DNA of 64,000 bases from Acidimicrobiia bacterium (GTDB lineage: Bacteria; Actinomycetota; Acidimicrobiia; Acidimicrobiales; Poriferisodalaceae), in assembly GCA_022821985.1 (NCBI GenBank), contig JAJECP010000035.1:1-64000 (forward strand), given 5' to 3'. Positions 51,227-56,300 of the stretch are shown piece after piece. The notes below the pieces were generated by a model. It was not told where the DNA came from and did not search any database. It saw nothing but the letters and a program-made list of their open reading frames with translations. Each line of letters begins with the position of its first letter. The stretch's first letter is position 1. The position numbers and the translations under genes were made by a program.

Positions 51227-52192
51227 CTAGGACGCAGCCCGTGCGTTCTCGAGCCAGCCGTTGACCCTGGCCCGGTTCTCCTCAATCCACTGCATTGCAT
51301 CGGCACGGATGTGCTCTTGGGTGTAGCCACCCGCTGCCATCCGCTCGTTCTGTGTCGCTATCCATCCCAGATCGATCTTGACCTGCTCGAGCAGGCTGCG
51401 AATGTCTGGATGGCTGTCGAGGAAATCGGCATTGGCGACGGCCCGGATGTCGTTCACTTCGAACGCGGAGTCCAGCCACACCACGTTCTCACCGGGAGTG
51501 AGAACGGCGTAGGTCCAGTTCGGAGTCCAGCCGTAGAACAGCACCGGCAGGCCAGCATCGACGCGGGCTCGCACCTCGCCGATGAGGTCGTTGTAGTTGC
51601 CCGAGTCCTGCTCCACATTGGCGCCCCAATCGCTGTCGGCAATGTGGCCATCAATGATCTGGGCACATCCCCAGTCCTCGTTGCATCCGTACAGGTCGGC
51701 GGTGCCGTCGCCGTCGGTGTCGAACTCCGCAGCGATTGAGGAGTTGGACAGCTGGCTCATCGACGACAGGCCCAGCCTGTCGGCGGTGGTCTTGTCGACC
51801 AGGTACCCCTCTCGGCCGCCACCGCCCACCTGCACACCGACCGGTTCGATCTCGCCTTCGGTCGAGAGCCCTGCGGCGGTTTCGAAGTCGAGGAACAGGT
51901 CGTGGTTGGGGAACCAACCGTTGGCCCACAGGTCGTATTGGCCGGTCCTCAGGGCGGGGTAGAAGTTGAGCGGTCCGAACTCGTGCTCGGAGGGATCGGT
52001 CACCTCGTAGCCCAGCTCTTCGATGAGCGAGGCGTAAATCTCCGCCTGTGCATAGCCGCTGTCCCAATTGGCCCGAGCCATGCGCACCGTGCCGTCTTCC
52101 TCCTCGCTCGAGAAGATCACGACGAGTGCGACGACAACCAAACCAACCAAGGCGCCGACCAAGATCAGACTTCTGCGTCGTTGCTTTGTCAT
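51227..52192 (-). CDS. Membrane-anchored glycine betaine-binding protein (ProX/OpuAC)
   Basis: The 321-residue product has an N-terminal membrane segment (ILVGALVGLVVVALVVIF) without a lipobox Cys, so it is anchored by the helix. The OpuAC fold shows ANWDSGYAQAEIY, DLWANGWFPNHD, NEDWGCAQII and FYGWTPNWTYAVL; the Trp residues match the aromatic betaine cage of ProX. Residues 158-166 (DTDGDGTAD) form a calcium-like loop. No ABC ATPase or permease partner is present; it sits 31 bases after a BCCT transporter gene. Confidence 0.9.
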   Translation of the reverse strand: MTKQRRRSLILVGALVGLVVVALVVIFSSEEEDGTVRMARANWDSGYAQAEIYASLIEELGYEVTDPSEHEFGPLNFYPALRTGQYDLWANGWFPNHDLFLDFETAAGLSTEGEIEPVGVQVGGGGREGYLVDKTTADRLGLSSMSQLSNSSIAAEFDTDGDGTADLYGCNEDWGCAQIIDGHIADSDWGANVEQDSGNYNDLIGEVRARVDAGLPVLFYGWTPNWTYAVLTPGENVVWLDSAFEVNDIRAVANADFLDSHPDIRSLLEQVKIDLGWIATQNERMAAGGYTQEHIRADAMQWIEENRARVNGWLENARAAS

Positions 52193-54050: not shown

Positions 54051-54127
54051 AGCGGGCCCCCAAATTCCCCCAAGAAGGCCCGAGACAGATCGCGTTGGAG
54101 CCGGCGATCGTCTCGCGGCCTGAGACC

Positions 54128-54133
54128 TAACGT
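54128..54133 (+). promoter_or_regulatory. TAACGT -10 box of a probable leaderless promoter
   Basis: TAACGT ends seven bases before GTG 54141. No ribosome site is present. The spacing supports GTG 54141 as the start of the channel gene. Confidence 0.5.
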
Positions 54134-54140
54134 AGTTCGC

Positions 54141-56300
54141 GTGAATGGTCGGGATGAACGCTGTTCACCATCAACGGCCCAGCAAGTCCGAGAAAGGCGC
54201 CGGAGCTTCGCTGGCGCCCGGCTGCGCTCGGTGTGCGCGCGCTCGGCAGTGACACTGCTCCTCGCTGGGTTGTTCATGGGATTGGCCCCGGCGGCACAGG
54301 CACAAACGTCCGCCGACGAACCGGTCGTCCGCCTGGCCCGTGCTACGTGGGACACGGGATGGTTCCAAGCGGAGGTCTACCGCCTGCTGCTCCAGCGACT
54401 CGGCTACGCCGTCGAGGGCCCGGTGACCATGGACAACGCGGAGTTCTACGAGGCGGTCGCTGCCGGCGATGTCGACCTGTGGGCCAACGGCTGGTTCCCG
54501 CTGCATGATGCCCACATCGCCTCCGATGCCCCGGTGGAGGTGGTCGGCACGGCAGTAGACGACGGTGCGCTGCAGGGCTACTTCATCGACGCGAGCACCG
54601 CCTCCGCCCACGGCATCGCCGATCTGAGCGACCTCGCCGATCCATCGCTCGCGGCACTGTTCGACCGGGACGGCGACGGGCGAGCTGACCTAGTGGGCTG
54701 CAATGTCGGGTGGTCGTGCGCACAGACGATCGACCACCATCTCGACGCATACGGTCTCACCGACACCGTCGAGCACATCCAAGGCGACTACTCGCCGCTG
54801 ATCACCGAAACCATCGCCCGCCATCGAGCCGGCCAGCCGGTCCTGTATTTCTCCTGGACGCCCAATTGGACGGTCGGCGAGCTTGTTCCAGGCACCGATG
54901 TCGTCTGGCTGGAAACGCCGTTCCCGTCATTGCCCGACGACCAAGCAGCCGCAATTGATCGCACATTCGTCGCGGGGCTTCCCGGCTGCGCCGACGACCC
55001 GTGCCAGACCGGTTGGCCTCCGAACGACATTCGAGCGGTCGCCAACTCAGATTTCCTGAAGGCGAATCCCGCCATCCGGAGGCTGCTGGAGGAGATCGCC
55101 ATCCCGCTGGAGGACATCTCGGCGCAGAACGCCCGCATGATCACCGAAGGAGGTGACCCGGCCGACATCCGCCGACATGCTGAGGACTGGGTGCAATCCA
55201 ACCTGGCGACAGTCCGCGAGTGGATCCGGGCTGCCGATCCCGCTGCGGTGGAAGTGCGGCCCGGACGCGACGAAGCGCCGGTGGGCGGCACGCTCTCCGT
55301 GGCCGCCCGTGCCCTGCCGCCGTTCGTGATCTACGAGAACGCCAGCTACAGCGGCTTCGAGGTGGAGCTGATCAAACTGCTCGCAGCCGACCTCGGCATG
55401 GAGGCCGAGATCTACGCGGTGGACACGGTTGCCAAGCAGATCGACGACATCCAGCGCGGCGTCGCCGATGTCGGCCTCGGCGGTACAGCGGTCACAGCTC
55501 ATCGCGAACAAGACATCGACTTCTCGGTGCCGGTGCTCGACTCGGGTCTCAGCATCCTCACTACTGCCGAGTCTTCCCGCAACGTCGGCGACCGGATCGC
55601 GACGTTCTTCACGGCAATCGCGTCATCGGACCTGCCGTGGCTCCTCGGGGTGTTTGCGTTAGCTGTGCTCATTGCCGCCCATCTGATCTGGCTGCTCGAG
55701 CGCCGTCACAATCCCGATTTCGCCGTGCCCTATCGCAGGGGGATCTGGGATTCCTTCTACTGGTCGGTTGTCACCATGAGCACGGTCGGTTACGGCGACA
55801 AGGTGGCCCGCGGCAATCGGGGCCGAGTGCTGGCACTGCTGTGGATCGCCTTGGGAACACTGGTGTTCGCCAGCTTCACCGCGGCTATCGCATCGTCGCT
55901 GGCCGTGAACGAGCTGCGGTCGGAGATCTCCGGACCGGCGGATCTGTCAGGCCGGCGAGTCGCCACAGTCAAGCACTCCGCCGGCGAGACCTACCTCCCG
56001 TCGATCGGCGTCGGCCCGGTCGTCGTCGATGAGATCGACGCCGCGTACGAATTGCTGTCAGAGGGGGAGGTTGAGGCGGTGGTGTTCGACGCGCCCGTGC
56101 TGCACTACTACGCCTCCCACCTGGGCGGCGGAGATGTGGTGACGGTCGGATCGGACTTCCAGCGAGTCCGCTACGGCTTGATGGTCGACGAGGACAATGC
56201 TGAGCTGCGCGAGCGTCTCAACCTGGCGTTGCTGGAGCTCATGGAAACCGGCATATACGCACGCCTGCACGACGGCTGGTTTGGCAACGAAGGCTCCTGA
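54141..56300 (+). CDS. OpuAC-GluR0 fusion: betaine-type sensor joined to a ligand-gated potassium channel
   Basis: The 719-residue product has a basic N-terminus and signal (VTLLLAGLFMGLAPAAQA, to about residue 54), an OpuAC domain (about 58-365) with ATWDTGWFQAEVY, DLWANGWFPLHD and YFSWTPNWTVGEL, then a type 3 binding lobe 1 (about 382-480), TM1 (about 500-520), a pore loop SVVTMSTVGYGDKV (filter TVGYGD, 548-553), TM2 (about 563-589), and lobe 2 (about 592-719). The second half is the plan of the bacterial glutamate-receptor-like channel GluR0. Residues 175-183 (DRDGDGRAD) repeat the calcium-like loop of the adjacent ProX. It is divergent from the BCCT gene; a betaine- or osmolyte-controlled potassium channel is inferred. 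GTG 54231 is an alternative start. Confidence 0.85.
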   Translation: MNGRDERCSPSTAQQVRERRRSFAGARLRSVCARSAVTLLLAGLFMGLAPAAQAQTSADEPVVRLARATWDTGWFQAEVYRLLLQRLGYAVEGPVTMDNAEFYEAVAAGDVDLWANGWFPLHDAHIASDAPVEVVGTAVDDGALQGYFIDASTASAHGIADLSDLADPSLAALFDRDGDGRADLVGCNVGWSCAQTIDHHLDAYGLTDTVEHIQGDYSPLITETIARHRAGQPVLYFSWTPNWTVGELVPGTDVVWLETPFPSLPDDQAAAIDRTFVAGLPGCADDPCQTGWPPNDIRAVANSDFLKANPAIRRLLEEIAIPLEDISAQNARMITEGGDPADIRRHAEDWVQSNLATVREWIRAADPAAVEVRPGRDEAPVGGTLSVAARALPPFVIYENASYSGFEVELIKLLAADLGMEAEIYAVDTVAKQIDDIQRGVADVGLGGTAVTAHREQDIDFSVPVLDSGLSILTTAESSRNVGDRIATFFTAIASSDLPWLLGVFALAVLIAAHLIWLLERRHNPDFAVPYRRGIWDSFYWSVVTMSTVGYGDKVARGNRGRVLALLWIALGTLVFASFTAAIASSLAVNELRSEISGPADLSGRRVATVKHSAGETYLPSIGVGPVVVDEIDAAYELLSEGEVEAVVFDAPVLHYYASHLGGGDVVTVGSDFQRVRYGLMVDEDNAELRERLNLALLELMETGIYARLHDGWFGNEGS

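Follow-up and report, generated by a model that had tools for sequence, protein, structure and literature searches.

A predicted GluR0-type potassium channel with an additional ProX-type ligand-binding domain in Acidimicrobiia and its association with BCCT transporter genes

Judged by its domains, the protein encoded at 54141-56300 (plus strand) of the DNA analysed here is a GluR0-type channel to which a ProX domain has been added at the N-terminus. The DNA, a stretch of 64,000 nucleotides designated the window, belongs to a draft assembly (41 contigs) of an Acidimicrobiia bacterium. Both the K+ selectivity predicted for the channel and the predicted binding of betaine by its ProX domain are well supported by sequence; we consider the fusion protein very probably to be a K+ channel and a betaine-type ligand in its first domain to be likely. 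Together with the BCCT cluster in which it is located, the fusion suggests that cells tie K+ flow to external betaine. With some reserve, we favour a K+-selective GluR0-type channel with two external sensors, in which betaine would modulate gating and K+ flow would be coordinated with betaine uptake by the BCCT transporter.

Domain architecture of the fusion protein

The gene is contained in one stop-free frame, which is open from 53787 and extends to 56300. Plausible GTG start codons are located at 54141 and 54231, and the choice between them is uncertain; residue numbers refer to the protein starting at 54141. This protein is composed of a signal peptide, a ProX/OpuAC domain, lobe 1 of a second ligand-binding domain, a transmembrane helix (M1), a pore region containing the sequence TVGYGD, a further transmembrane helix (M3) and lobe 2 (Table 1). 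Apart from the signal peptide, the first-pass annotation had proposed this order, together with a divergently transcribed BCCT gene and a second OpuAC protein. The order is borne out by Pfam, NCBIfam and structure matches, with OpuAC, SBP_bac_3, Ion_trans_2 and Lig_chan all matched in one protein, and both neighbouring genes are present.

The Pfam domain OpuAC (PF04069) covers residues 63-352 (5.7e-49; 167.5 bits at a cut-off of 21.2). SBP_bac_3 covers residues 390-715 and is split by Ion_trans_2 (507-587; 2.7e-14), and Lig_chan matches residues 505-604 (4.5e-12). The eukaryotic-type amino-terminal domain (PF01094) had no match in the fusion at E values up to 1 in the Pfam search; OpuAC is found there instead. 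With the NCBIfam equivalog for ProX (NF008334), the fusion scores 347.2 bits at a cut-off of 215. The nearest solved structures by sequence are E. coli ProX (1r9l; 3.9e-64) and the ligand core of Nostoc GluR0 (2pyy; 1.7e-35), and the next matches of the channel half are plant GLR3.4 and NMDA receptors, among other amino-acid-binding proteins. The hydropathy profile has its maximum in the signal-peptide-like segment 31-49 and further peaks at 501-519 (M1) and 563-592 (M3); hydrophobic N-termini are also present in the eight orthologues compared. For the M3 gate of ionotropic glutamate receptors (iGluRs), the consensus motif SYTAxLxxx has been given (PMC11479355).

A single-chain structure model calculated from 57 rows (34 fusions and 23 neighbouring ProX proteins) reached moderate confidence (pLDDT 73.7, pTM 0.46) and supersedes a poor earlier model from 34 rows (pLDDT 62.1, pTM 0.39). 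Among known folds, it is most similar to ProX with betaine (1r9l; 5.2e-29, TM score 0.88 of target, 2.6 Å), and it also matches the Nostoc GluR0 core (0.86 of target) and LBD-TMD chains of AMPA receptors (from 4.8e-19, about 0.5 of target). As a prediction, the model confirms the two folds, not the domain placement or the oligomer.

Table 1 Features of the fusion gene and of the adjacent genes in the window
Feature	Position	Strand	Basis or remark
Fusion gene, ProX/OpuAC domain and predicted GluR0-type K+ channel	54141-56300	+	719 aa from GTG 54141; alternative GTG 54231
Putative signal peptide, residues ~31-54, ends AQA	54231-54302	+	Hydropathy, orthologue N-termini; cleavage site judged by eye
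OpuAC/ProX domain, residues 63-352; W118, W191, W239, H122, C187/C193	54327-55196	+	Pfam, NCBIfam, structure matches, conservation
Variable linker joining the two sensors, residues 366-383	55236-55289	+	pLDDT <50 at 371-381; dN/dS
Ligand lobe S1, residues 384-480, Arg455	55290-55580	+	Pfam, structure-sequence match, conservation
Transmembrane helix M1, residues 498-523	55632-55709	+	Hydropathy; model helix 498-523
Pore helix and K+ filter	55731-55799	+	TVGYGD at 55782-55799 = residues 548-553; invariant in 37 of 37 rows
Transmembrane helix M3 (residues 559-592), bearing the iGluR gate motif SFTAAI	55815-55916	+	Alignment, hydropathy, model
Ligand lobe S2, residues 600-715, Asp650	55938-56285	+	Pfam, structure-sequence match, conservation
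Presumed promoter region, a 90-bp gap separating the divergent BCCT and fusion genes	54051-54140	.	
BCCT family betaine/carnitine/choline transporter, 608 aa	52224-54050	-	PF02028 5.3e-189; TIGR00842 508.8 bits, above cut-off
Stand-alone ProX-like binding protein, membrane-anchored at the N-terminus	51227-52192	-	31 bp after BCCT; Pfam, NCBIfam, N-terminus

Occurrence of the fusion

A pattern scan of 84,980 species (one genome per species), which is sensitive to close relatives only and also covered genomes outside the phylum, retrieved the fusion architecture at 39 loci of other genomes. Twenty-seven of these are assigned to Acidimicrobiia or Acidimicrobiaceae, 11 are labelled 'bacterium' and one belongs to the isolate Salsipaludibacter albus AS10 (L038). 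The frame is complete and aligned over more than 600 residues in 36 loci. Two others are fragments cut by contig ends (L035, L041), and the last one (L043; 6001-7046, plus strand, of a 13-kb stretch) comprises residues 305-652 with a frame change inside and is either a pseudogene or a misassembly. Alignment A1, consisting of the window and 33 of the loci (L011, L017, L029, L035, L041 and L043 were left out), gives identities to the window protein of 57-82%, and OpuAC, SBP_bac_3 and Ion_trans_2 were detected in all 34 rows.

An artefact in which two genes were fused by an assembly or sequencing error is exceedingly improbable: the 36 complete copies, that of the named isolate included, come from other records and have neither a stop nor a frameshift at the joint where the first-pass annotation had placed such a risk. 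Because the same architecture occurs at 39 loci of other genomes, a chance or assembly join was rejected as an explanation.

The fusion was also found in related genomes; its absence there was the second objection raised by the annotation. A full fusion is present in 3 of 99 genomes of relatives of the window's organism (2 of the 11 within the genus), in at least 28 of 395 genomes of a class sample, in which the copy of G292 is split over two contigs, and in at least 5 of 396 genomes of a phylum sample, the organism's own genome being included each time. The genome-sample counts are lower bounds because few candidates were scored per genome (two for the class and phylum fusion counts, five in the later genome-sample search). 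The gene is thus patchily distributed even within its genus. A profile of the channel half matched at least 11 of the 396 phylum genomes at E values up to 1e-20; the matches comprise five fusions, four proteins that do not carry a ProX domain, a fusion that has decayed (G751) and a weak, partial match (G580). Three of the four plain channels have a GYGD filter (G057, G557, G185) and one lacks it (G817). With five fused and four plain proteins, the two forms are about equally frequent in the phylum sample.

No fusion was obtained in a search of plasmids, in which none of the 71 matched records covers 80% of the query. A search of viral contigs gave one match, a stand-alone GluR0-like K+ channel of 396 aa with the sequence STVGYGD (L072; 2821-4011, plus strand) on a 186-kb contig of a viral collection. 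Its gene directly follows one of the PspA/IM30 family and lies upstream of DNA glycosylase-like and DNA methylase genes; either a large phage carries the channel or the contig is not viral. In addition, iGluR-like proteins with TGGEAV in place of TVGYGD are encoded in relatives of the window genome (L047, 113-1363, plus strand; L048, 2719-3873, plus strand), and one with yet another pore was observed in L073 (1215-2639, minus strand).

Ligand-binding sites, K+ filter and selection

Conservation was evaluated in 37 rows, i.e. the window protein and those of 36 of the 39 loci. The residues W118, W191, W239, H122, C187 and C193 of the fusion align with W65, W140, W188, H69, C136 and C142 of E. 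coli ProX, which we take to form the betaine-contact site. W118, W191, C187 and C193 are invariant in all 37 rows, W239 is tryptophan in 34 and phenylalanine in 3 (L033, L034, L038), and H122 is histidine in 33 and glutamine in 4 (L023, L024, L025, L039). R455 in S1, D650 in S2 and the TVGYGD sequence are unchanged in every row.

In GluR0, an arginine in S1 and an aspartate in S2 hold the amino acid (PMC2950845). At the side-chain end of the clamshell, position 613 is serine in 33 rows and threonine in 4, and position 614 is alanine in 34 of 37; the corresponding residues of Nostoc GluR0 are S-T. With R455 and D650 invariant, the clamshell should bind some amino acid.

The comparison of the window with L006 yields dN/dS values of 0.118 (ProX domain), 0.105 (channel), 0.375 (linker) and 0.869 (signal region), and in three pairs the linker has values of 0.38-0.50 compared with 0.10-0.19 in the two domains. 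The dS of the fusion to L006 (6001-8157) is 0.67, that of six other genes (BCCT, ProX and four flanking genes) 0.14-0.32; an exchange by recombination or faster evolution may perhaps be responsible for the high value.

Gene neighbourhood

The stand-alone ProX-like protein next to the BCCT gene is 41% identical to the OpuAC domain of the fusion. BCCT is clustered with the fusion in 34 of the 39 loci, and 33 have both BCCT and the ProX-like gene; in L007, counted among the former only, the contig ends inside BCCT. Three gene orders occur in the 33 loci: divergent (27), co-directional BCCT-ProX-fusion (3) and convergent fusion-ProX-BCCT (3), and the same trio is present in two further convergent cases (G688, G542). 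The loci L009, L012, L035 and L041 have the contig end on the upstream side, which is the BCCT position in the commonest order, and their downstream stretches contain neither BCCT nor ProX; the broken copy L043 has neither gene as well. The 39 loci were also searched for nine further genes that flank the trio in the window. Close matches were obtained only in the nearest relative L006, for six of them, along with two weak enoyl-CoA hydratase matches of about 30%; three genes match nothing, two of these being located partly or wholly beyond the 6-kb flanks. BCCT, ProX and the fusion are thus retained as a unit, whereas their surroundings and order vary.

BCCT-ProX pairs without the channel are found in L062, L064, L065, L066 and L068 and partially in L067, and the channel-half profile had no match in the genomes of these channel-free pairs; the pair therefore does not need the channel. 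A decayed fusion, from which the ProX domain, M1 and the pore helix have gone, is located beside a BCCT-ProX pair in L063 (6584-7435, minus strand), which suggests that a locus can lose the channel and retain the pair. As judged by eye from the N-termini, the neighbouring ProX resembles a lipoprotein at many loci, whereas that of the window's clade begins with a plain membrane helix. All 34 rows of the neighbouring ProX share the box residues W93, H97, C170, W174 and C176, with tryptophan (29 rows) or tyrosine (5 rows) at position 222. No ABC permease or ATPase domain was detected among the 13 window proteins scanned, and the genome's own ProV is encoded elsewhere (C28:20812), near another OpuAC. 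That an anchored binding protein is encoded beside BCCT and no ABC partner was seen in the window is unusual in its own right.

The neighbourhood also bears on the ligand of the N-terminal domain, which might be proline betaine, carnitine, choline, TMAO or DMSP in an otherwise identical channel. Choline, TMAO and DMSP are ligands of proteins that have the same fold (2reg, 4xz6, 7yle), and the BCCT protein scores 551.8 bits with the betaine equivalog NF047988, i.e. below the cut-off of 650. Downstream in the window are genes for a class III CoA-transferase, an acyl-CoA dehydrogenase and an enoyl-CoA hydratase, a set reminiscent of carnitine breakdown. As a constant context, these genes were rejected, with close matches to the acyl-CoA dehydrogenase and the enoyl-CoA hydratase only in L006 of the 39 loci and none to the CoA-transferase. 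The scores obtained with the ProX equivalog (347 bits) and with the choline-binding family (28.6 bits, cut-off 379) likewise argue for betaine, and a different ligand is not very likely in our view.

Origin of the ProX domain

A first tree was calculated from 37 fusion domains, 34 neighbouring ProX proteins and 2 OpuAC proteins from elsewhere in the window's own genome. It hinted at a duplication because no other ProX was included. A wider tree retained 16 of the 37 fusion and 16 of the 34 neighbour rows and added nine ProX proteins, five of them from Pseudomonadota plasmids and four linked to BCCT without a fusion. In this unrooted tree, which has one long-branched external row, one row with two stops (L076) and the own-genome pair on a very long branch, the fusion domain groups with the plasmid ProX proteins against 20 BCCT-linked ProX proteins (100/99). 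This overturns the assumption that the neighbouring ProX was the source of the domain. In both trees, from which the copies of G688 and G542 are absent, the ProX domains of the fusions fall into a single group, which is present in 100% of bootstrap trees. The sequence relationships favour derivation of the fusion ProX domain from an ordinary betaine-binding protein.

Proposed function

In the mechanism that we favour, the N-terminal ProX-type sensor would read external glycine betaine or a close relative, and the S1/S2 clamshell, which is wired to the pore, would read an amino acid. By analogy with GluR0, the protein would be a tetramer with both sensors outside and, in analogy to the N-terminal domain of eukaryotic receptors, betaine in the ProX domain would modulate, and most likely favour, opening by the clamshell ligand. 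K+ would move while the BCCT transporter of the same cluster takes up betaine, and the cell would trade K+ (glutamate) for betaine. Uptake by BCCT presumably brings in Na+, and the exit of K+ would compensate the positive charge from Na+-coupled betaine uptake. The channel would thus be a valve for K+/betaine exchange, through which K+ leaves when betaine can enter. The tetramer, the gating by betaine, its polarity, the physiological role and the Na+ coupling of this BCCT are those parts of the scheme that we infer. Modulation of gating by betaine appears rather likely to us; for opening with K+ efflux as the polarity, the chances are about even. Points that speak against the scheme are the deviating side-chain site of the clamshell, the moderate confidence of the structure model, the patchy occurrence of the gene and the BCCT-ProX pairs that lack it.

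Alternatively, the ProX domain might not gate at all and serve as an assembly aid or capture betaine near the membrane for BCCT, with the clamshell alone running the channel. The variable linker between the sensors would be in keeping with this, as would a chimera of GluA1 and a viral K+ channel whose assembly and function were intact after removal of the N-terminal domain (PMC6385376), so that such domains need not be essential. However, a pure assembly domain would not need the ligand-contact residues, which are kept at a dN/dS of about 0.12, and a membrane-anchored ProX-like protein is already encoded beside BCCT; we regard a non-gating domain as unlikely. Similarly improbable, in our assessment, is the opposite polarity, i.e. 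that betaine closes the channel or ends the early K+-uptake phase after an osmotic upshock. Ligand binding to proteins of this kind normally leads to closure of the clamshell, and it is closure that opens GluR0-type pores, which counts indirectly against an inhibitory effect. Polarity is nevertheless something that sequence cannot fix, and in Synechocystis GluR0 has been described as a route of passive K+ influx; it also rescued an E. coli strain deficient in K+ uptake (PMC13099474).

The exchange of K+ for betaine proposed here can be compared with what has been reported for salt adaptation. K+, which bacteria accumulate together with glutamate in the first phase, is subsequently replaced by compatible solutes (PMC13099474). 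GluR0 of Synechocystis carries K+, has both termini outside, depends on the soluble domains and, for a brief period following a KCl upshock, slows shrinkage (PMC13099474). Its deletion led to better growth with KCl only, not with NaCl or sorbitol, and on agar, not in liquid (PMC13099474); given this KCl-only effect of a plain GluR0, a general role of the channel type in osmotic adaptation is not established.

K+ and betaine are two of the main osmolytes exchanged by bacteria during salt adaptation, and a bacterial channel which has gained an N-terminal domain is a natural test of the coupling between domain and pore, with a known ligand class and, in S. albus, a host available as an isolate. 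We know of no earlier betaine-controlled K+ channel and of no prokaryotic iGluR with an N-terminal sensor; if the two-input reading is true, the fusion would be the first of both, to our knowledge. The chances are evenly balanced that a glutamate-receptor channel independently acquired a second ligand-binding domain in bacteria and thereby became a coincidence detector for betaine and an amino acid which swaps K+ for betaine in step with BCCT.

Comparison with known systems

The closest counterparts are the K+-selective prokaryotic glutamate receptors of Group 1 of Ger et al. 2010, which include GluR0 of Synechocystis (slr1257) and of Nostoc punctiforme (PMC2950845). The fusion shares with them a split SBP_bac_3 clamshell around M1-pore-M3, the K+ filter, the arginine in S1, the aspartate in S2, a signal peptide and the lack of M4, but differs in the extra N-terminal ProX domain of about 300 aa, in the side-chain site of the clamshell and in its BCCT/ProX cluster. 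GluR0 has been described as having no N-terminal domain (PMC6385376, PMC11479355), such a domain having later developed in eukaryotes (PMC11479355).

The InterPro entry IPR001828, extracellular ligand-binding receptor, is relevant in this respect, as we take it to be the type of the eukaryotic N-terminal domain. The 2010 survey, whose prokaryotic set comprises 100 proteins that have the lobe motif (channel topology in 22, a K+ filter in 12), lists this entry in the legend of a domain network that includes human receptors; the network may contain a prokaryotic carrier, the text naming no carriers (PMC2950845). In the main text of the survey, OpuAC and betaine are not mentioned (PMC2950845). Among the open-access papers searched, none describes a ProX-channel fusion or a bacterial channel reading external betaine, as far as can be judged from titles and the beginnings of abstracts.

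With ProX, the binding protein of ProU (1r9l), the fusion has in common the fold, the aromatic box, the histidine on the carboxylate side and the cysteine pair. Unlike ProX, it is joined to a channel, and its gene stands in a window with no ABC partner among the genes scanned. The betaine-gated channels of nematodes belong to an unrelated family of pentameric receptors. They are ion channels answering betaine, of animal origin (DEG-3/DES-2; PMC8747062; PMC9860315).

Two tandem binding-protein domains on a membrane protein are also known from systems that have no channel pore, GlnPQ serving a transporter and BvgS a sensor kinase. Both (6h30 and 4q0c, respectively) were among the fold matches of the fusion.

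The amino-terminal domain of eukaryotic iGluRs is of the PF01094 type. The fusion resembles these receptors and the plant GLRs in the succession of an N-terminal binding domain, S1, M1, pore, M3 and S2 as well as in the M3 gate motif, and chains of NMDA receptors, AMPA receptors and GLR3.4 match its channel half, but it has a K+ filter, no M4 and an N-terminal domain from another type of binding protein. In relation to the eukaryotic receptors with an amino-terminal domain, the fusion would therefore represent at most a parallel invention, which is not a member of that group but may work alike.
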